Below are positions 46,903 through 57,250 of a stretch of DNA of 64,000 bases, one piece after another (position 1 is the first letter of the stretch; each line of letters begins with the position of its first letter). A program made the position numbers and the translations under genes. The DNA lies in contig JAKOVR010000211.1 of the NCBI GenBank assembly GCA_029782025.1, forward strand, positions 1 to 64,000. Reading direction: 5' to 3'. The notes under the pieces are model-generated. The model saw nothing but the letters and a program-made list of their open reading frames with translations, did no database searches and was not told where the DNA came from. The DNA is from Actinomycetes bacterium. Lineage in GTDB: Bacteria > Actinomycetota > Acidimicrobiia > Acidimicrobiales > Acidimicrobilacustridaceae.

Positions 46903-47558
46903 TCGACGCCGCCGACGTGGCCGCCAACGCCGAGGCGGTGCGGGGCCGCGTCCGCGCCGCCGGTGGGGATCCCGCCGCCGTCCGGCTGATCGCCGTCACC
47001 AAGGCCTTCCCGGTGGGGGTGGTCCGGGCCGCGCTGGCCGCCGGCCTCGTCGACCTCGGGGAGAACTACGCCCAGGAGCTACTGGAGAAGGCGGCGGCGC
47101 TGGCCGCGCCGGCCCCGGCGGTCGCGCCGGCCTGGCACTTCATCGGCCGGCTCCAGTCCAACAAGGTCAAGGCCCTCGCCCCTCACGTCGCCCTCTGGCA
47201 CACCGTCGACCGACCGTCGGTGGTCGACGCCATCGCCCGCCACGCCCCCGGGGCCGCCGTCCTCGTGCAGGTCAACGCCAGCGGTGAGGACCAGAAGGGC
47301 GGGGTGGCACCGGCGGGGTGCCCGGAGCTGGTCGAGCGGGCCGGGCAGGCCGGCCTGGCCGTGCGCGGCCTCATGACCGTCGGGGTGGCGGGCGATGCCG
47401 ACGGCACCCGCGCCGCCTTCCGTGCCGTCCGGGCCCTGGCCGACCGGCTCGGTCTCCCGGAGTGCTCGATGGGGATGAGCGGCGACCTCGAGCTCGCCGT
47501 CGCCGAGGGATCCACCATGGTGCGCATCGGCCGCGACCTGTTCGGGGCGCGGGGCTGA
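46899..47558 (+). CDS. YggS/PLPBP-family pyridoxal-phosphate homeostasis protein
   Basis: A 219-residue TIM-barrel PLP carrier like the N-terminal domain of alanine racemase. The PLP lysine is in LIAVTKAFP; GENYAQE, WHFIGRLQSNKVK, VNASGEDQKGG, and the C-terminal SMGMSGDLELAVAEGSTMVRIG are family signatures. It has no catalytic partner residue, so it is a homeostasis rather than a racemase protein. GTG start overlapping the pgeF stop. Confidence 0.9.
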   Translation: MIDAADVAANAEAVRGRVRAAGGDPAAVRLIAVTKAFPVGVVRAALAAGLVDLGENYAQELLEKAAALAAPAPAVAPAWHFIGRLQSNKVKALAPHVALWHTVDRPSVVDAIARHAPGAAVLVQVNASGEDQKGGVAPAGCPELVERAGQAGLAVRGLMTVGVAGDADGTRAAFRAVRALADRLGLPECSMGMSGDLELAVAEGSTMVRIGRDLFGARG

Positions 47559-47560
47559 TC

Positions 47561-47592
47561 GCGGCACCCGGGGATTCGTGTCGTCGTGCCGC
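47561..47592 (+). terminator. possible hairpin between the yggS-type gene and sepF
   Basis: GCGGCAC and GTGCCGC form a 7-bp stem with an 18-base loop just after the stop. The long loop makes this weak; it could reduce read-through into sepF. Confidence 0.25.
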
Positions 47593-47630
47593 CGTCGTGC
47601 GAGACTAGGGGCGAGTAGCCAGGAGGACCG

Positions 47631-48344
47631 ATGGCTGGGTTCGTGCGCAACGCCATGCTCTATCTGGGGCTGGGGCCAGACGACGAGTACGAGGACGATC
47701 AGGAGGCCGCCGACGCGCCCGCGTCGCCGCGGCCCGTGAAGGCCCGCCCGGCCAAGGCGGCTGCGCCCCGACCGAAACCGGTCCCGCTGTCGGAGGCCGT
47801 GGCCAGCGGGGCCCTCCCGCCGCCACCCGGGACCCGTCCCGCACCGCCACCCGCGACCCGTCCCGCGCCCCCGCCGCCGGCCGCCGCCCGGCCCAAGGCC
47901 GCGCCCCCGCCCCCGGCCGCCGCCGGCGCCCGTCCGAAGCCCCCGCCGGCCGCTGCCGCCCGGGGTCCGGTGGTGCGCCCGGTGCAGCCGGTCGGAGCCG
48001 AGGAGCACGGCATCCGGGTCACCGCCGACGTGCCCGCGGCCAAGCCCCGCGTGGCCGTGCGGCCCGTGCCGGCCAACAGCAAGCCCCACATCGTGACCCC
48101 CACCCACTTCAACCACAGCCAAGAGGTTGCCGACCGGTTCAAGAACGACCAGCCGGTCATCGTCAACCTCCAGGGCGCGTCCCGTGAGCTGGCCCGCCGC
48201 ATCATCGACTTCTCGAGCGGCATCTGCTACGCCCTCAGCGGCCGGATGGAGAAGGTCGGCAACCAGGTCTACCTGCTGATCCCCGCCAACGTGGAGGTGT
48301 CGGCCGAGGAGCGACGCCGCCTCGCCGAGCGGGGGCTGGGCTGA
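47631..48344 (+). CDS. sepF: SepF, membrane anchor for FtsZ
   Basis: A 237-residue protein. An N-terminal amphipathic helix (MAGFVRNAMLYLGLG) targets the membrane, followed by an acidic patch, a proline/alanine-rich linker of about 100 residues and the SepF domain at about 150-235 (HFNHSQEVADRFKNDQPVIVNLQGAS, RRIIDFSSGICYALSGRMEKVG). It replaces FtsA/ZipA in tethering FtsZ. The linker is longer than in most SepF proteins. A good AGGAGG site lies before the ATG. Confidence 0.92.
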   Translation: MAGFVRNAMLYLGLGPDDEYEDDQEAADAPASPRPVKARPAKAAAPRPKPVPLSEAVASGALPPPPGTRPAPPPATRPAPPPPAAARPKAAPPPPAAAGARPKPPPAAAARGPVVRPVQPVGAEEHGIRVTADVPAAKPRVAVRPVPANSKPHIVTPTHFNHSQEVADRFKNDQPVIVNLQGASRELARRIIDFSSGICYALSGRMEKVGNQVYLLIPANVEVSAEERRRLAERGLG

Positions 48345-48353
48345 CCCACGGCC

Positions 48354-48605
48354 ATGGGTCTCATCGTCCTGCTGCTCAACCTCTACGGGCTGGTCCTCCT
48401 CGTCCGCGTGGTCCTCAGCTTCTTCCCGGTCACGGAGGGCACGGCCACGGCGTCGATCTACGACGTCTGCTACACCCTCACCGAGCCCGTCCTGGCCCCG
48501 ATCCGCAGCGTGATCGGCCCGGTCGACGTCGGGGCGTCGGCCTTCGACCTGTCGCCCATCGTGGTGTTCGTGGCCATCGCGATCCTCAGCCGCATCCTCG
48601 GCTGA
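48354..48605 (+). CDS. YggT-family membrane protein
   Basis: An 83-residue protein with two membrane helices (about 2-22 and 64-82) and the central YggT motif (YDVCYTLTEPVLAPIRSVI). Its place between sepF and divIVA is conserved in actinobacteria and suggests a division or membrane role. Function not established. Confidence 0.85.
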   Translation: MGLIVLLLNLYGLVLLVRVVLSFFPVTEGTATASIYDVCYTLTEPVLAPIRSVIGPVDVGASAFDLSPIVVFVAIAILSRILG

Positions 48606-48643
48606 GGTCCCGGCCCATCACCGTCGCGCCCATGGCCGACCAC

Positions 48644-48649
48644 TAGCAT
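48644..48649 (+). promoter_or_regulatory. -10 box of a leaderless promoter (divIVA)
   Basis: TAGCAT lies seven bases before the divIVA ATG with no ribosome site between. Confidence 0.5.
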
Positions 48650-48656
48650 CGCCGCC

Positions 48657-49913
48657 ATGGAGGATTCCCCCGTTCTGGTGAGCAGCGTCGAGTTCGACGA
48701 GGTCAAGCGCGGCTACGACCCGGAGCAGGTCGACAACTACCTGCGCGAGGTCGGTGGCGCCGTCACCAAGCTCAAGTCGATGTTGCGTGAGGCGGTCGAG
48801 CGGGCCGAGGCGGCCGACGCCCGGGTCGCCGAGACCCTGCGGACGAAGGCCGCGGCCGAGTCGCAGCTGGCCGAGGCGGCCGAGCGCCAGGCCGCGCTGA
48901 TGTCGGCCCTCGCCGCCGCCGAGGAGCGCCTGGCCAACCCGCCCGAGGACGAAGAGGCCGAGGCGCTGCGCAAGATGCTGATGCTGGCCCAGCGCACGGC
49001 CGACAACGCGGTGGAGGAGGCGCAGGCCTCGGCCAAGAACATCGTGGCCGACGCCCGCACCAAGGCGGCCGAGGTCGTGGCCGACGCCGAGACGAGGGCC
49101 GAGCGGCTGCTCATCGAGGCCCAGAAGGTGGCCGACGAGCTCATCAAGGAGAAGACCGGCGCCCTGGTGCTCCAGGTGCGCGAGCTCGAGCGCCGCCGGG
49201 ACGATCTCTTCGGCGACGTCCAGAGCCTGGTCGATCACCTGAACGACCACCGCCAGCGCCTCCACGACGCCGTGGCCCACATGCACAGCCTCCTCGACAG
49301 CCCGGTCGGGCTGCGGGCCGACGGGCTGCCCGACCTTCGGACCCTGGCCGGCGAGTCGACCGTGGCCGACCGCATCGCCGAGATGGAAGCCGCCGAGGCC
49401 GCGCCCGCGGCGCCGGCCCCCGCGCCCGCCACGCCCGCTCCTGCACCGGCACCGGCACCTCCGGCCCCGGTGGCGCGCGCCGCCGAGCCGGCCCCCGCGC
49501 CCGTCGCCGCGCCGGCCCCGGCCGTCGTCGTGCACCCGTCGCCGGCGCCCAGCGGCGGATCGGTGGAGGGCGGGTCGGCCAGCATGTCGGCCGGGCCGTC
49601 CACCGGTTCCACCACCGCCGTCGCCGAGCGGCCCGAAGCGGCCAAGGTGAACGCCCTGCTCGAGGCGCCCCGCGCCCCCCGCATCGAGATCGAGGTCGTC
49701 CGGCCCGAGCCCGCGATCGTCGCCGAGGTCGAGCCCGTGGCCGAACCCGTGGCTGAGGCCGAGGCCGACGCCGTGCCGCTGTTCGATCAGGCCGAGGTGG
49801 AGATGGTCGAGGCCCTCACCCCCGAGCCAGAGGCCGACGAGGCCATGCGCCGGTTCTTCGAGGAGGACTTCGACGCCGGCGCCCAGGCCAAGGGCATCTT
49901 CCGCCGCAAGTAG
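48657..49913 (+). CDS. divIVA: DivIVA/Wag31-like polar scaffold
   Basis: A 418-residue coiled-coil protein. The N-terminal lipid-binding DivIVA domain has SSVEFDEVKRGYDPEQVDNYLREV, and coiled coil runs from about residue 30 to 230, then an Ala/Pro-rich low-complexity region (about 240-310), and an acidic C-terminus ending in a basic FRRK. It marks curved membrane and poles and recruits growth machinery. The Ala/Pro block is much longer than in Bacillus DivIVA. The last gene of the cluster, with its own leaderless promoter. Confidence 0.88.
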   Translation: MEDSPVLVSSVEFDEVKRGYDPEQVDNYLREVGGAVTKLKSMLREAVERAEAADARVAETLRTKAAAESQLAEAAERQAALMSALAAAEERLANPPEDEEAEALRKMLMLAQRTADNAVEEAQASAKNIVADARTKAAEVVADAETRAERLLIEAQKVADELIKEKTGALVLQVRELERRRDDLFGDVQSLVDHLNDHRQRLHDAVAHMHSLLDSPVGLRADGLPDLRTLAGESTVADRIAEMEAAEAAPAAPAPAPATPAPAPAPAPPAPVARAAEPAPAPVAAPAPAVVVHPSPAPSGGSVEGGSASMSAGPSTGSTTAVAERPEAAKVNALLEAPRAPRIEIEVVRPEPAIVAEVEPVAEPVAEAEADAVPLFDQAEVEMVEALTPEPEADEAMRRFFEEDFDAGAQAKGIFRRK

Positions 49914-49919
49914 CGGCCC

Positions 49920-52900
49920 TCAGGGCTTGGTGAGCAGCACGCTCACCGGCTCGCCCTCGATCTCGATCTGGCTCGGTTCGCCGTGGAGCACGGCGCCGAC
50001 GTGGAACGACTGCGCCAGCACCTCCGAGGCGATCGTGGCGGCGTGGGTCTCGACGGCGAGGAGGAGCGCGTCGGCGGGGTCGATGACCACGTCGACCCGG
50101 TCGTCGATCTCGAAGCGCAGCTCCTTGCGCAGGTCGTTGATGGCCCGGATCACCTCGCGGGCCTGACCCTCGAGCCGGAGGTCCTCGGAGACCTCGAGGT
50201 CGAGGGCGGCGGCCCACCCGTTGTCCTCGATCAGGGCGAAGGCCTCGTGGCGCTGGGCCCGGACCTCGACCTCGCCGGCCTCGATGCGCTCGCCGGCCAC
50301 CTCGATGGCGCCGACCTCGTCGAGCTGGCGCTTGAGGTCGTTGCCGTCGGCCGCGGCCAGGGCCGCTTTGACCTCGTTGACCTTGGGGCCGAGCCGCGGT
50401 CCGAGGGCCCGGAAGTTGGGGATGATCGTCCAGTCGATGAGCCCGGAGAGGGTGTCGACCTGCTCGAGCGTCTTGACGTTGAGCTCGACCTTGATCTCCT
50501 CCTCGATCTCCGGTGCGAGGGTGACGCCGGGGTGCAGGAGCAGAGCGCGGGGGAGGGGTTGGCGCACCTTGACCTTGGCCTCCGTGCGGGCGCTGCGGCC
50601 CAGGCCGACGAGGCGCCGGGCCGCCGCCATCTGGGCGGCCAGCTCCTCGTCGCCCCGCCCGCGGTCGGTGGGCCAGTCGGCGAGGTGGACCGATGCCGCG
50701 CCGGTGAGGTTGGCGTAGAGCTCGTCGGCGATGAAGGGGCAGAACGGGGCCAACAGCTCGGCCACCGTGACGAGGCACTCCCACAGCGTGGCGTGGGCGG
50801 CGGCGTCGGAGCTCTTCCAGAACCGGGGCCGGGAGCGCCGGACGTACCAGTTCGAGAGGTCGTCGACGAAGCCGGCGATGGCGGCCGAGGCGGCCAGGGC
50901 GTCGAAGCCCTCCAGCTCGGCCGTGACCGCGGCCACCGTGCGATCGAGCTCGGAGAGGATCCACCGGTCGAGCACGTGGGTGGGAGCGGGCAGGTCGCTC
51001 GGGGCGGCCGGTGGCTCCCACCCGTCGTAGGTGGCGTAGGTGACGAAGAAGGAGTAGCAGTTCCAGAGCGTGAGCAGCGTCTGGCGGGTGGCTTCGCGGA
51101 TGCCGGTCTCGGACACCCGGCGCGGGGTCCAGGGCTGGCCGGCGGAGAAGAAGTACCAGCGCAGGGCGTCGGCCCCTTGCGTCTCGAAGATGTCCCACGG
51201 GTCGATGACGTTGCCGCGGCTCTTGCTCATCTTGTTGCCGTTCTCGTCGACGACGAGCCCGAGGCACACCACGTTGCGGTAGGGCGTGGCGTCGAACACG
51301 AGGGAGTTCACGGCGAGCAGCGAGTAGAACCAGCCGCGGGTCTGGTCGATCGCCTCGCAGATGAAGTCGCCGGGGAACGACCGGCGGAACAGGTCCTCGT
51401 GCTCGAACGGGTAGTGGAACTGGGCCGAGGGCATCGACCCCGAGTCGAACCAGGCGTCGAGCACCGGTTCGAGGCGCCGAGCGGTGCCGTCGCACCCGGC
51501 GGCGGCGCAGGGGAAGGTGACGTCGTCCACGTAGGGCCGGTGCAGGTCGAGGTCGGTGAGGTCACGGCCGACCAGCGCGGCCAGCTCGGCCACGCCGCCG
51601 ATGCAGGTGTCGGCGCCGCAGTCGTCGCAGCGCCAGATCGGCAGCGGTGTGCCCCAGTAGCGGTCGCGGGAGAGGGCCCAGTCGATGTTGCCCTCCAGCC
51701 AGTTCCCGAAGCGGCCGTGCTTGATGTTCGGCGGCTGCCAGTTGATGGCCTCGTTCTCCCGCAGGAGCAGGTCGCGCTGCTCGGACGTGCGGATGAACCA
51801 GCTCGTCTTGGCCCAGTAGATGAGCGGCGTCGAGCACCGCCAGCAGTGCGGGTAGCTGTGCTCGTAGGCCTGCTCGCGCACGAGGACGCCCCGGGCGGCG
51901 AGATCGTCGATGATGCCGCGGTCGGCGTCCTTCACGAAGAAGCCGCGCCACACCGGGACGCGGTCGTCGAACCCGCCGTCGGCGTTGACGGGGTTGAGCA
52001 CGGGCAGGCCGTGCTCGCGGCAGGCCCGGGCGTCGTCCTCGCCGAAGGCCGGGGCCAGGTGGACGATGCCCGACCCGTCGTCGGTGCTCACGAAGTCGGC
52101 GGTGATCACCCGCCACGCCCGCTCGGCCTGGGCCGGGTCATCGACCTCGAGGAAGGCGAAGGGGCGCTCGTAGCGCCGCCCGGCCAGCTCCGCCCCCGTG
52201 AACGTGGCCCCGGCCGCCACCTCGGTGCTCTCGGGGAGCCGTGACACGGCGGCGATGAGGTCGCGCCCCTCCACGCCGAAGGTGGCGGCGGGGACGCGGG
52301 CGTAGGTGATGTCGGCCCCGACGGCGGCGGCCACGTTGGAGATCAGGGTCCAGGGCGTGGTGGTCCACACCAAGAGGTCGGCGCCGTCGAAGCGGGCGTC
52401 GCCGGTGTCGTCGAGCGGGAACCGCACGTAGATGGACGGGTCGACGACGTCGCGGTAGGCGCCGGGCTGGCCCAGCTCGTGGCTCGACAGCGCGGTGCCG
52501 CAGCGCGAGCAGTAGGGCACGACGCGGTGGCCCTCGTAGAGCAGGCCCTTGTCCCACATCTGGCGCAGCAGCCACCAGACCGACTCCACGTAGCCGTTGT
52601 CGAGGGTCCAGTAGGCGTTGTCGGTGTCGATCCAGACCCCGGCCCGTTCGGTGAGGGCGGTCCAGTCGGACACGTACCGGTGGACCGACTCGCGGCACTT
52701 GGCGTTGAACGCCTCCACCCCGTAGGCCTCGATCTCGTGCTTGGTGGAGAGGCCCAGCTCCTTCTCGATCTCGAGCTCGACCGGGAGACCGTGGCAGTCC
52801 CACCCGCCCTTGCGGGGGACGGCCTTGCCCCGCATGGTCTGAAAGCGCGGGTAGAGGTCCTTGAACACGCGGGCCCACACGTGGTGGAGGCCGGGGCGGC

Positions 52901-53057
52901 CGTTGGCGGTGGGCGGGCCCTCGTAGAAGATCCAGGGCTCCCCGTCCTTCCGGTGGGCGGCCACCCGGGCGATGATGTCGTCGTCCTTCCAGCGGGCGAG
53001 CACGCGGGTTTCGACGTCGGCGAGGTTCACATCGGGGGAGACGGGACCGAAGGGCAT
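49920..53057 (-). CDS. ileS: isoleucyl-tRNA synthetase, type-2-like, with GLHH in place of HIGH
   Basis: A 1045-residue class Ia synthetase charging tRNA-Ile. The length and lack of a C-terminal zinc extension fit the IleS2/eukaryote-like group. The KMSKS motif is intact at 609-613 and GWDCHGLPVELEIEKELG is conserved. The HIGH signature region reads GPPTANGRPGLHH, so the tetrapeptide at 56-59 is GLHH: first and third positions are swapped. Such GxHH IleS2 proteins have been reported as hyper-resistant to mupirocin. The editing domain is present. ATG start; a TAACCT box lies nine bases upstream. It faces divIVA tail to tail. Confidence 0.94.
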   Translation of the reverse strand: MPFGPVSPDVNLADVETRVLARWKDDDIIARVAAHRKDGEPWIFYEGPPTANGRPGLHHVWARVFKDLYPRFQTMRGKAVPRKGGWDCHGLPVELEIEKELGLSTKHEIEAYGVEAFNAKCRESVHRYVSDWTALTERAGVWIDTDNAYWTLDNGYVESVWWLLRQMWDKGLLYEGHRVVPYCSRCGTALSSHELGQPGAYRDVVDPSIYVRFPLDDTGDARFDGADLLVWTTTPWTLISNVAAAVGADITYARVPAATFGVEGRDLIAAVSRLPESTEVAAGATFTGAELAGRRYERPFAFLEVDDPAQAERAWRVITADFVSTDDGSGIVHLAPAFGEDDARACREHGLPVLNPVNADGGFDDRVPVWRGFFVKDADRGIIDDLAARGVLVREQAYEHSYPHCWRCSTPLIYWAKTSWFIRTSEQRDLLLRENEAINWQPPNIKHGRFGNWLEGNIDWALSRDRYWGTPLPIWRCDDCGADTCIGGVAELAALVGRDLTDLDLHRPYVDDVTFPCAAAGCDGTARRLEPVLDAWFDSGSMPSAQFHYPFEHEDLFRRSFPGDFICEAIDQTRGWFYSLLAVNSLVFDATPYRNVVCLGLVVDENGNKMSKSRGNVIDPWDIFETQGADALRWYFFSAGQPWTPRRVSETGIREATRQTLLTLWNCYSFFVTYATYDGWEPPAAPSDLPAPTHVLDRWILSELDRTVAAVTAELEGFDALAASAAIAGFVDDLSNWYVRRSRPRFWKSSDAAAHATLWECLVTVAELLAPFCPFIADELYANLTGAASVHLADWPTDRGRGDEELAAQMAAARRLVGLGRSARTEAKVKVRQPLPRALLLHPGVTLAPEIEEEIKVELNVKTLEQVDTLSGLIDWTIIPNFRALGPRLGPKVNEVKAALAAADGNDLKRQLDEVGAIEVAGERIEAGEVEVRAQRHEAFALIEDNGWAAALDLEVSEDLRLEGQAREVIRAINDLRKELRFEIDDRVDVVIDPADALLLAVETHAATIASEVLAQSFHVGAVLHGEPSQIEIEGEPVSVLLTKP

Positions 53058-53066
53058 AGGCCGACA

Positions 53067-53072
53067 AGGTTA
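53067..53072 (-). promoter_or_regulatory. -10 box for ileS
   Basis: TAACCT on the minus strand, nine bases before the ileS ATG; back to back with the DUF167 promoter at 53102. No T-box riboswitch fits in such a short leader. Confidence 0.4.
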
Positions 53073-53101
53073 CGCCCTGGCCCGACCGGGTCCGACAGCC
53101 G

Positions 53102-53107
53102 TACCGT
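53102..53107 (+). promoter_or_regulatory. -10 box of a leaderless promoter (DUF167 gene)
   Basis: TACCGT lies six bases before the GTG start at 53114. Confidence 0.5.
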
Positions 53108-53113
53108 GGGCCC

Positions 53114-53428
53114 GTGCCCGCCGTCGACGTCACCGTCACCGAGGGCGGCGATGCCGTCTTCTGGGTGTTCGTGCAGCCCGGCGCCGTGCGGGCCCAGGTG
53201 ACGGGTCCGTACATCGACTGCCTGCGGTTGCGGGTGACCGCGGCCCCCGAGCGGGGGCGGGCCAACGACGAGGTCGAGGCGTTGCTCGCCCGCACCCTGG
53301 AGGTGGCCCGGCGGGACGTGCGGATCGAGCTGGGGGCGGCCAGCCGGCGCAAGCGGGTGCGCATCGTGGGCGGGGCATCGCCGGCGGTGATGGGGCGTCT
53401 GGTCGCCCTGCTCGGCGGTGCTGGTTGA
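53114..53428 (+). CDS. DUF167 (YggU-like) protein
   Basis: A 104-residue protein of the DUF167/YggU family. The conserved VQPGAVRAQVTGPY, LRLRVTAAPERGRANDEV and VRIELGAASRRKRVRI segments are present. Function unknown; YggU-family genes often accompany yggT/yggS in division clusters, and this copy lies just past ileS from that cluster. GTG start. Confidence 0.82.
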   Translation: MPAVDVTVTEGGDAVFWVFVQPGAVRAQVTGPYIDCLRLRVTAAPERGRANDEVEALLARTLEVARRDVRIELGAASRRKRVRIVGGASPAVMGRLVALLGGAG

Positions 53429-53486
53429 CCGCACCGCGCTGACGGCCTACATTCCGGCACCCTTTGCGCAGGGAAGGAGCGCCGCC

Positions 53487-54122
53487 ATGGCACCAGCGAA
53501 GAAGGCCGCACCACCGAAGAAGGTGGCTGCGGCCCAGAAGCCCGCAGCAGCGAAGAAGGCGCCCCCGGCCAAGAAGGCGTCCCCCGCCAAGAAGGCTTCC
53601 CCGGCCAAGAAGGCTGCGGCGACCGCGAAGGTCGCTCCGGCCAAGAAGGCCGCTCCAACCAAGAAAGCAGCAACCGTGACCAAGGCGCCAGCCGCATCGT
53701 CATCCGCCAAGACCCCACCCGCGAAGAAGGCGGCACCCAAGAAGCCGGCCTTCGACGCCCGATGGGTGGAGAAGCAGCGACTCGCGCTGCTCGACGAGCG
53801 GGCCACCTACGAGCGCCAGGCCCGCAACTTCCAGGCCGAGGCCGACGAGCTGGCCGCCATGCGGGAGCCCGGCGACGTGCAGTTCGACGAGGAGAGCGGC
53901 GAGGGCGACACCCTGGCCGTCGAGCGCGAGCGCGATCTCGCCCTGAGCGCGCAGGCGCTGGCCGCCATCGCCGACATCGACCACGCCCTCGGCAAGATCG
54001 ACAAGGGCACGTACGGCTACTGCGAGGTTTCCGGCGAACCGATCCCCAAGGAGCGCCTCGAGGCCATACCGTGGGCCCGTGAGCGCGTCGAGTACAAGGT
54101 CGGCGGCTTCGGCCGCCGCTGA
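53487..54122 (+). CDS. DksA/TraR-like protein with histone-like tail and lost zinc ligands
   Basis: A 211-residue protein. Residues 1-100 are a Lys/Ala/Pro low-complexity tail of PAKKA-type repeats resembling histone H1-like bacterial tails. Residues 105-211 form a DksA-type domain: coiled coil (RLALLDERATYERQARNFQ), then the DHALGKIDKGTYGYC segment. In normal members this is a four-Cys zinc finger; here only C179 remains (CEVSGEPIPKERLEAIPWA), with Ser182 and no second Cys pair. It may bind DNA and RNA polymerase without zinc. ATG with a GGGAAGGAG site. Confidence 0.8.
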   Translation: MAPAKKAAPPKKVAAAQKPAAAKKAPPAKKASPAKKASPAKKAAATAKVAPAKKAAPTKKAATVTKAPAASSSAKTPPAKKAAPKKPAFDARWVEKQRLALLDERATYERQARNFQAEADELAAMREPGDVQFDEESGEGDTLAVERERDLALSAQALAAIADIDHALGKIDKGTYGYCEVSGEPIPKERLEAIPWARERVEYKVGGFGRR

Positions 54123-54129
54123 GCGCGCG

Positions 54130-54642
54130 GTGCCCGAAGCCGGCGGGGAACGCCAGCCCCGCACCCGCCGGGGCCTCATGGCCGCGGTCCTCGTCGCCGT
54201 CGTCGCCGTCGACCAGCTCACCAAGCAGTGGGTGGTCAACGAGCTGACGGGGCGGCGCATCGAGGTGTTCTGGACCCTCGTGCTCCACCGCGTCGAGAAC
54301 AAGGGCGCGGCCTTCAGCCTGTTCGGGGGCGGCGGGTTCGGCCCCGTCATCGCCGTCGTGGCCGTGGCCATCGTTGGCCTCCTGCTCTGGCAGGGCCGTA
54401 CGGTGGAGCGCCGCCTCGGGGCCGTGGCCCTCGGGCTCATCGGCGGCGGCGCCATCGGGAACCTCGTCGACCGGCTCTTCCGGGCCAGCGACGGCTTCCT
54501 GAGCGGCGGCGTGGTCGACTTCATCGACTTCCAGTGGTGGCCCGTGTTCAACGTGGCCGACATGGGGGTCGTGGTCGGGGGCATCACCCTCATTGCGCTC
54601 TACGCCTTCCTGCCCGAGTCGCCGGGCGCGGGCGATGACTGA
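54130..54642 (+). CDS. lspA: lipoprotein signal peptidase
   Basis: A 170-residue prolipoprotein signal peptidase with four membrane helices. The first helix carries VDQLTKQWVV; the catalytic aspartates are in GNLVDRLFR and FNVADMGV, and VENKGAAFSLF is the conserved loop. It cleaves the many lipoproteins seen in this window. The GTG start was chosen seven bases after the DksA-like stop; an in-frame GTG at 54079 would overlap that gene by 44 bases. Confidence 0.9.
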   Translation: MPEAGGERQPRTRRGLMAAVLVAVVAVDQLTKQWVVNELTGRRIEVFWTLVLHRVENKGAAFSLFGGGGFGPVIAVVAVAIVGLLLWQGRTVERRLGAVALGLIGGGAIGNLVDRLFRASDGFLSGGVVDFIDFQWWPVFNVADMGVVVGGITLIALYAFLPESPGAGDD

Positions 54643-55594
54643 CCCCGCCGGCGGGTTCGACGACGAGGACGAGGCCGTGGCCGAGGTGGTGCCGCCGCTG
54701 CTGGCCGGCGAGCGGCTCGACCGGGTCGTTTCGATGGTCACCGACGCCAGCCGGGCCGTGGTGGCGGCGTGGCTGGCCGACGGGCGGGTCACGGTCGACG
54801 GCGCCACCGTCACCAAGGCCTCGCTGCGCCTCCGCGAGGGGCAGCTGGTCGTGGCCCCGCCCCGGCCGCCCGACGCCCCGGCGAGGCCGGTCGTGGCCGA
54901 CGCCACCGTCGCCGTGACCGTGGTCCACGCCGACGACGAGGTCATCGTCGTAGAGAAGCAGCCCGGCCTCGTCGTGCATCCCGCCCCGGGGAACTGGGAG
55001 GGCACCCTCGTGCACGGGCTCCTGGCCCGCTTCCCCGAGATCGCGTCGGTCGGGGTCGACCCCACCCGGCCGGGCATCGTCCACCGGATCGACAAGGACA
55101 CGAGCGGCCTGCTCGTGGTCGCCCGCACCCAGGACGCCTACCACGACCTCGTGGGCCAGCTGCAGGCCCACACGGTGGAGCGGGCCTACCTCGCCCTCCT
55201 CTGGGGTCACCTCCAGACCCGGGCCGGGCAGGTCGACGGGCCGATCGGGCGCTCGCGGCGCGACCCCACCCGGCGGGCCGTCTCGGCCACGGGCAAGGAG
55301 GCCCGCACCGACTTCGAGGTCATCACGGCCTTCGACGCCCCCGTCGCCGTCTCGTTGGTCCGCTGCCGGCTCCACACGGGGCGCACCCACCAGATCCGGG
55401 TCCACATGCAGTCGATCGGCCACCCGGTGGTGGGCGACACCGTGTACGGCGGGGCCCGCCAGTCGCTCGTGGTGCCCCGGCTGTTCCTCCACGCCGCCAC
55501 CCTCGGCTTCACCCACCCCGGCACCGGCGAGCTCCTGCGCTTCGAGAGCGAGCTGCCGGACGATCTCGGCCCCGTGCTGGCCCGGTTGTCCTGA
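54635..55594 (+). CDS. rluD: RluA/RluD-family 23S rRNA pseudouridine synthase
   Basis: A 319-residue pseudouridine synthase. An N-terminal S4 domain (PPLLAGERLDRVVSMV through VTVDGATVTKASLRLREG) precedes the catalytic domain with Asp153 in HRIDKDTSGLLVVA; RLHTGRTHQIRVHMQSIGHPVVGD follows. Target site by analogy is helix 69 of 23S rRNA, not provable here. The start overlaps the lspA 3' end by eight bases, an arrangement (lspA-rluD) common in many bacteria. Confidence 0.9.
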   Translation: MTDPAGGFDDEDEAVAEVVPPLLAGERLDRVVSMVTDASRAVVAAWLADGRVTVDGATVTKASLRLREGQLVVAPPRPPDAPARPVVADATVAVTVVHADDEVIVVEKQPGLVVHPAPGNWEGTLVHGLLARFPEIASVGVDPTRPGIVHRIDKDTSGLLVVARTQDAYHDLVGQLQAHTVERAYLALLWGHLQTRAGQVDGPIGRSRRDPTRRAVSATGKEARTDFEVITAFDAPVAVSLVRCRLHTGRTHQIRVHMQSIGHPVVGDTVYGGARQSLVVPRLFLHAATLGFTHPGTGELLRFESELPDDLGPVLARLS

Positions 55595-55615
55595 CCGGTC
55601 GGTCCGGCCGGTCAG
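55591..55615. terminator. bidirectional hairpin terminator
   Basis: CTGACCGG and CCGGTCAG make a perfect 8-bp stem with a 9-base loop exactly between the convergent rluD and Rrf2 genes. Confidence 0.6.
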
Positions 55616-56049
55616 TCGGGCCAGGCGGCCTGGCCGCGGGCCATGGCCACGATGTCGGCGAGGGTGAGGGCGCTGAGCTCTCGACGCATGCGCTCGCCGA
55701 TCACCGACCAGATGGCCAGCAGCACGCACTGGCCCTCGTGGTCGCAGGCGCCGTTCTGGTGGGGCTGGCCGAAGTCCCCGAGCATGATCGGACCGTCGAC
55801 GGCCGACAGGATGTCGGCCAGCGTGATCTGCCCCGGTTCGCGGGCCAGCACGTAGCCGCCGCCGACGCCGCGCTTGGAGCGCACGATGCCGGCGCCCTTG
55901 AGGGCGAGCAGGATCTGCTCGAGGTAGGGCTGGGGGAGCCCGGTGCGGTCGGCGATGTCGCGCACCGAGGTGGGGCCCTCGCCGTCGGCGTGGAGGGCCA
56001 GCGACACGAGGGCCCGGCTGGCGTAATCCCCCCGCGTCGAGACCTTCAT
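55612..56049 (-). CDS. Rrf2-family transcriptional regulator
   Basis: A 145-residue winged-helix Rrf2 protein: KVSTRGDYASRALVSLALH, the recognition region SVRDIADRTGLPQPYLEQILLALKGAGIVRSKRGVGGGY, and a C-terminal cysteine segment GACDHEGQC. IscR/NsrR-type members use three cysteines for an iron-sulfur cluster; only two are seen here, so cluster binding is uncertain. No isc or suf genes are adjacent. ATG start with a TACGAT -10 box six bases upstream; target unknown. Confidence 0.83.
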   Translation of the reverse strand: MKVSTRGDYASRALVSLALHADGEGPTSVRDIADRTGLPQPYLEQILLALKGAGIVRSKRGVGGGYVLAREPGQITLADILSAVDGPIMLGDFGQPHQNGACDHEGQCVLLAIWSVIGERMRRELSALTLADIVAMARGQAAWPD

Positions 56050-56055
56050 GGGGTC

Positions 56056-56061
56056 ATCGTA
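56056..56061 (-). promoter_or_regulatory. -10 box of a leaderless promoter (Rrf2 gene)
   Basis: TACGAT on the minus strand, six bases before the ATG; the divergent strand has TAGCGT at 56105-56110 for the phosphodiesterase gene. Confidence 0.45.
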
Positions 56062-56131
56062 GGCAACGGGTCACCGTAGGTGGTCACGCACACCGATCCG
56101 GGGGTAGCGTCACGACAGGGAAAGGAGCCCG

Positions 56132-57250
56132 GTGGACATCCCCCAACCCAACGGCGCAGGCGAACCGCTCCTCCCTCGTTTCGACGGCCCCTGCATCGCC
56201 AACGTCGTGCCGGCGTTGATCGGCGCCACCGATGCGCCCCCGTGGCTCCCGGCCGCAGCCCTCGAGGCCGACCGGGTGGTGCTCCTGGTCATCGACGGTC
56301 TCGGGTGGGAGCAGCTCCAGGCCCGCCCCACGCTGGCCCCGACCCTCCGCTCGTTCGCCGGTGGGGCCATCACCACGATCGCCCCGTCGACGACCGCCAC
56401 CGCGCTGACCACCATCACCACCGGCCTGCCGCCCGGCCAGCACGGGGTGGTCGGGTACCGCGTCGCCGTCGAGGGACGGGTGCTCAACACGTTGCGCTGG
56501 ACCGTCGACGGACGCGACGCCCGCACGTCGATCCCGCCGGCGACCTTCCAGCCCCACGCCTGCTTCGGGGCGCAGAAGCCCGCCATCGTCACCCGCGCCG
56601 AGTTCCGCACCAGCGGGTTCACCGGGGCCCACCTCGACGGCACGCGGTTCTCCGGGTACCGGGTGCTCTCGACGCTCGTCACCGAGGTCGGCCGGCTCCT
56701 CGGCGCCCACGAGCCCTTCGTGTACGCCTACTACGACGGGCTCGACAAGGTGGGCCACGAGTACGGCCTCGGCCCCCACTACGACGCCGAGCTCGTCGCC
56801 ATCGACCGCATGGTGGCCGACCTGCTGGCCGTGGCCCCGCCGGGCACGGCGCTGGTGGTGATCAGCGACCACGGGCAGGTCCACGTCGACGACAACGTCG
56901 TGACGCTCCACCCCGACGTGGCGGCGCTGGTGGCCCTGCAGTCGGGCGAGGGACGCTTCCGGTGGCTGCACCCCCGGGCCGGCCGCGGCGCCGACCTGCT
57001 CGCCGCCTGCCAGGACCACCACGCCGACACGGCGTGGGTCCGCTCCGTCGAACAGACCCTCGACGAGGGCTGGTGGGGCCCCGACCCCACCGACGCCGCC
57101 CGGCGCCGACTTGGCGCGGTGGCCCTTGTGGCGCGCGAGGATGTGGCCTACCACGACCCCGACGACACCGGCCCGTACGTGCTGGTCGGCCGGCACGGCT
57201 CGCTCACATCGGCCGAGATGCTGGTGCCGCTGCTCGTGGCGTCGGTGTGA
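56132..57250 (+). CDS. alkaline-phosphatase-superfamily phosphodiesterase/pyrophosphatase
   Basis: A 372-residue member of the type I phosphodiesterase/nucleotide pyrophosphatase family. Metal ligand D55 (LLVIDGLGWE), the nucleophile Thr in APSTTATALTT (about 87-88), the second site in YDGLDKVGHEYG and the DHGQVHVDD motif are present, a complete two-metal active site. No signal peptide is visible, so it is probably cytoplasmic. Substrate unknown. GTG start with an AAAGGAG site; TAGCGT at 56105-56110 is a candidate -10. It is followed 27 bases later by bpa. Confidence 0.83.
   Translation: MDIPQPNGAGEPLLPRFDGPCIANVVPALIGATDAPPWLPAAALEADRVVLLVIDGLGWEQLQARPTLAPTLRSFAGGAITTIAPSTTATALTTITTGLPPGQHGVVGYRVAVEGRVLNTLRWTVDGRDARTSIPPATFQPHACFGAQKPAIVTRAEFRTSGFTGAHLDGTRFSGYRVLSTLVTEVGRLLGAHEPFVYAYYDGLDKVGHEYGLGPHYDAELVAIDRMVADLLAVAPPGTALVVISDHGQVHVDDNVVTLHPDVAALVALQSGEGRFRWLHPRAGRGADLLAACQDHHADTAWVRSVEQTLDEGWWGPDPTDAARRRLGAVALVAREDVAYHDPDDTGPYVLVGRHGSLTSAEMLVPLLVASV

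Follow-up and report, generated by a model that had tools for sequence, protein, structure and literature searches.

The window, a 64,000-nucleotide contig stretch, encodes an isoleucyl-tRNA synthetase (IleRS) whose class I signature reads GLHH, with the first and third positions of HxGH exchanged. The protein is almost certainly the ordinary housekeeping type-2 IleRS (IleRS2) of an Acidimicrobiales-like actinobacterium, in which the HIGH motif has an inherited, already described non-canonical form, GxHH. The swap is real but already explained. The G/AxHH motif of IleRS2 was described by Brkic et al. 2023 (PMC10485003), with 86 G/AxHH versus 77 HxGH IleRS2 in representative proteomes, and as a rule either IleRS type occurs without the other, IleRS2 commonly being the sole enzyme (PMC10485003); the window's case is therefore an instance of a known, common variant. 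The first-pass annotation had correctly linked this swap to extreme mupirocin tolerance in a subset of type-2 IleS proteins (PMC10485003), but the rarity it implied was overstated, as G/AxHH is the majority form of the sampled IleRS2 and a sole IleRS2 is usual.

Type and signature of the IleRS

The ileS gene (49920..53057, minus strand) is a full-length frame of 1045 aa without internal stops, matching PF00133, PF08264, PF19302 and the ileS equivalog TIGR00392, the latter at 882.1 bits against a cut-off of 621.4, and scoring under the cut-offs of the ValRS models. PF19302 (DUF5915), a C-terminal domain typical of type-2 IleRS, covers residues 853-1044 (49926..50501, minus strand), and the domain search found no PF06827 (the IleRS1 zinc finger) in the protein. 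By phmmer, the protein scores 928 bits against Priestia megaterium IleRS2 (PmIleRS2) versus 321 bits against PmIleRS1. Foldseek, queried with an AlphaFold model of moderate quality (pLDDT 81, pTM 0.75; KMSKS loop partly below 50), places solved IleRS2 structures at ranks 1-4 and IleRS1 at ranks 13-14, and the GVHH mutant of PmIleRS2 (8c8w) is the top PDB match by both sequence and fold. The protein is thus a type-2 IleRS, as annotated, with its nearest named relatives on contigs labelled Acidimicrobiales (68-77% identity).

Direct reading of the minus strand gives the codons GGC CTC CAC CAC (52892-52881), encoding G56-L57-H58-H59 where class I synthetases carry HxGH. The residues and the exchange of positions 1 and 3 had been annotated correctly, while the interval assigned to them, 52879-52892, is two bases too long, the four codons occupying 52881..52892. 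A pattern scan of the entire 1045-aa protein found no H.GH tetrapeptide and a single [GA].HH, namely GLHH, which has the Gly (or Ala) at position 1 and the His at position 3 that define the G/AxHH form. Alignment with PmIleRS2 likewise puts GLHH on the signature, exactly over its wild-type HVGH (PDB 8c8u/8c8v) and mutant GVHH (8c8w). In the AlphaFold model, active-site geometry being outside what it tests, GLHH sits at the tip of helix 57-75, the position expected of class I enzymes.

The second class I motif, KMSKS, is read directly at residues 609-613 (51219..51233, minus strand), which together with the uninterrupted frame bears out the annotation of an intact gene. Its first four residues are invariant in 49/49 GxHH enzymes. 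The signature context, GPPTANGxPGxHHxxxR, is (near-)invariant among relatives down to ~40% identity, and KMSK, this context and many further columns are invariant over 13 enzymes, with 39-77% identity for the relatives among them.

Copy number and chromosomal neighbourhood

The 4.63 Mb genome, in 219 contigs and 95.7% complete, was searched for a second ileS as the first-pass annotation had advised, and none scored over the TIGR00392 cut-off elsewhere in it. Other PF00133 matches include one that reads as ValS (PPPTVSGSLHVGH) and one as LeuS (PYPSGSAHMGH), with two weaker frames taken, by score and length, as MetS and CysS-like. DUF5915 occurs once genome-wide, in the window IleRS. A hidden IleRS1 fragment was considered and rejected, the sole PF06827 (IleRS/Fpg zinc finger) match of the genome, on contig C114, being MutM. 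Within this 95.7% complete assembly, the window ileS is probably the only IleRS gene.

Its neighbours are divIVA (48657..49913, plus strand; PF05103), which is convergent with ileS, and a divergent group on the plus strand (53114..55594) comprising DUF167 (yggU), a DksA/TraR zinc-finger protein, lspA and rluD-like genes. Synteny with divIVA is kept in L010, L017 and L021, and the dksA-lspA-rluD order in these and L009; the longer run sepF-divIVA-ileS-dksA-lspA-rluD-rrf2 is seen in L010, L017 and L021 and, up to the end of its contig, in L009. No Rfam match to an RNA leader (T-box) of ileS was found across 47000-56500. The conservation of gene order around ileS in relatives supports its assignment as the housekeeping enzyme, so that both annotated features, a normal chromosomal place beside divIVA and a probable role as sole housekeeping ileS, hold.

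These data bear on whether the gene could instead be recently mutated, or acquired for resistance in the manner of plasmid-borne mupA, with a normal ileS elsewhere in the genome. The window protein shares the type-2 family with the acquired MupA/MupB enzymes and does score ~800 bits with their NCBIfam models (798.7 and 795.4), though far under the curated cut-off of 1900; unlike them, it is chromosomal and single. The lack of a second ileS or an IleRS1 zinc finger in the 95.7% complete genome, the conserved sepF-divIVA-ileS-dksA-lspA-rluD neighbourhood and the fixation of GxHH throughout the clade, described below, all argue against this explanation and leave it very improbable.

Distribution and inheritance of the swapped form

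Among 22 genomes sampled from the same family and order, the GxHH IleS pattern is present in nine (window included) and HxGH in 12; the remaining genome shows neither, its ileS lying at a contig end with the N-terminus missing. A local motif swap within the window's family was rejected, since the further genomes sampled from that family have GxHH in 3/3 cases. In a phylum sample of 296 genomes, GxHH patterns match 112 and HxGH patterns 40, a handful of the HxGH cases looking like chance matches judged by context; the patterns are strict, and the true counts of both forms may therefore be higher.

A tree of 86 IleRS, built with the motif region left out and rooted by E. coli IleS alone, separates 49/49 GxHH rows from the HxG[H/N/T] rows. 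Support for the HxG[H/N/T] split is 0.98. The root edge is immediately next to the GxHH side, which takes in Actinomycetota, Anaerolineae, Ignavibacteria and Bacteroidales, so that this side receives no separate support value. As the GxHH rows stand apart even in a motif-free tree, the state is an inherited one that goes far back in the family; the tree, with the Bacillaceae HxGH IleRS2 left out, cannot count motif origins. Columns such as R63, A582 and P642 distinguish the two clades. They were considered as a residue set co-varying with the swap and not retained as such: R63 has an R counterpart in the HVGH enzyme PmIleRS2 as well, so these columns are clade markers rather than demonstrated compensators.

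That the enzyme is degenerate or inactive, or that a sequencing artefact resembles the swap, has a negligible probability: the first signature His is normally essential, several class I enzymes losing 10^3-fold when it is mutated (PMC10485003), but the frame is full length and free of stops, invariance over 13 enzymes extends to KMSK, the signature context and many other columns, the gene is the sole copy of an essential enzyme, and all 49 enzymes of the clade share the motif state.

Within the window's own order, GxHH and HxGH IleRS2 lineages are divided along family lines, a by-family split that suggests whole-gene replacement in the past. It is conceivable, although we hold it somewhat short of an even chance, that Acidimicrobiia ileS genes comprise two anciently split IleRS2 lineages (GxHH; HxGH/HxGN) that were exchanged between families, so that swap and tolerance would have spread by whole-gene replacement and not by motif mutation.

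Signature variants in other Acidimicrobiia

Another IleRS2 branch of Acidimicrobiia has the fourth signature His replaced (HYGN, HFGN or HYGT; L077, L078, L081, L082, L084, L093, L094, L095, L134, L136 and L137), in the context PF[PA]TGSPHYGN. The HxGN pattern is found in 36/119 Acidimicrobiia genomes and 10/70 genera, and a slightly narrower version in 0/296 genomes of the phylum sample, which holds few Acidimicrobiia. Rows with this replacement do not group together as a single clade among the 86 IleRS of the tree, which, at low support, hints at repeated change of the fourth His. HIGN is on record for human MetRS (PMC8216282), and our literature search found no paper on an IleRS with an HYGN/HIGN-type signature.

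Two genomes of one genus, G162 (L099 and L100) and G258 (L101 and L102), each encode a GVHH and an HYGH IleRS2, both copies being full length and over the ileS cut-off; a third member, G247, has the HYGH copy only. In the two-copy genomes, the additional gene could be a resistant one, or could have arrived by transfer.

Relation to characterised enzymes and mupirocin

The G/AxHH IleRS2 of Streptomyces griseus and Deinococcus radiodurans resemble the window IleRS in type, swap, intact KMSKS and housekeeping role, with no difference of substance; its second residue, Leu, is among those listed for that position (PMC10485003). PmIleRS2 (8c8u, 8c8v; mutant 8c8w) is homologous over the whole length at ~42% identity, but its natural motif is HVGH, and it has His582 where the window IleRS has Leu601 (codon 51255-51257, minus strand). 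The IleRS1 counterpart of His582 is Phe586, which stacks on adenine or mupirocin; among GxHH relatives, the position is Leu or His in about equal numbers. IleRS1 (E. coli IleS; S. aureus IleRS1) shares the class I fold and reaction with the window IleRS, but differs in its HIGH motif, zinc-finger C-terminus and mupirocin sensitivity.

In studied enzymes, the G/AxHH swap raises the mupirocin Ki up to ~1000-fold (PMC10485003). The natural ALHH enzyme DrIleRS2 has a Ki of 6.6 mM, which drops to 8.1 μM once the motif is changed to HVGH; the GVHH change in PmIleRS2 or TtIleRS2 raises the Ki ~200 to 430 fold, from 1.08 to 460 μM in PmIleRS2 (PMC10485003). IleRS1 cannot take the swap, GxHH abolishing its activity (PMC10485003). 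Mechanistically, the third-position His puts its side-chain nitrogen where the first His would have its own, and the bulk of this third-position His clashes with mupirocin (PMC10485003). By analogy with these homologues, the window IleRS would catalyse through the third-position His of its signature and may be hyper-resistant to mupirocin.

A textbook-invariant catalytic motif can thus be swapped in an essential enzyme, a lesson published in 2023; the only novelty here is a further lineage on record with the swapped form fixed and serving as sole enzyme.
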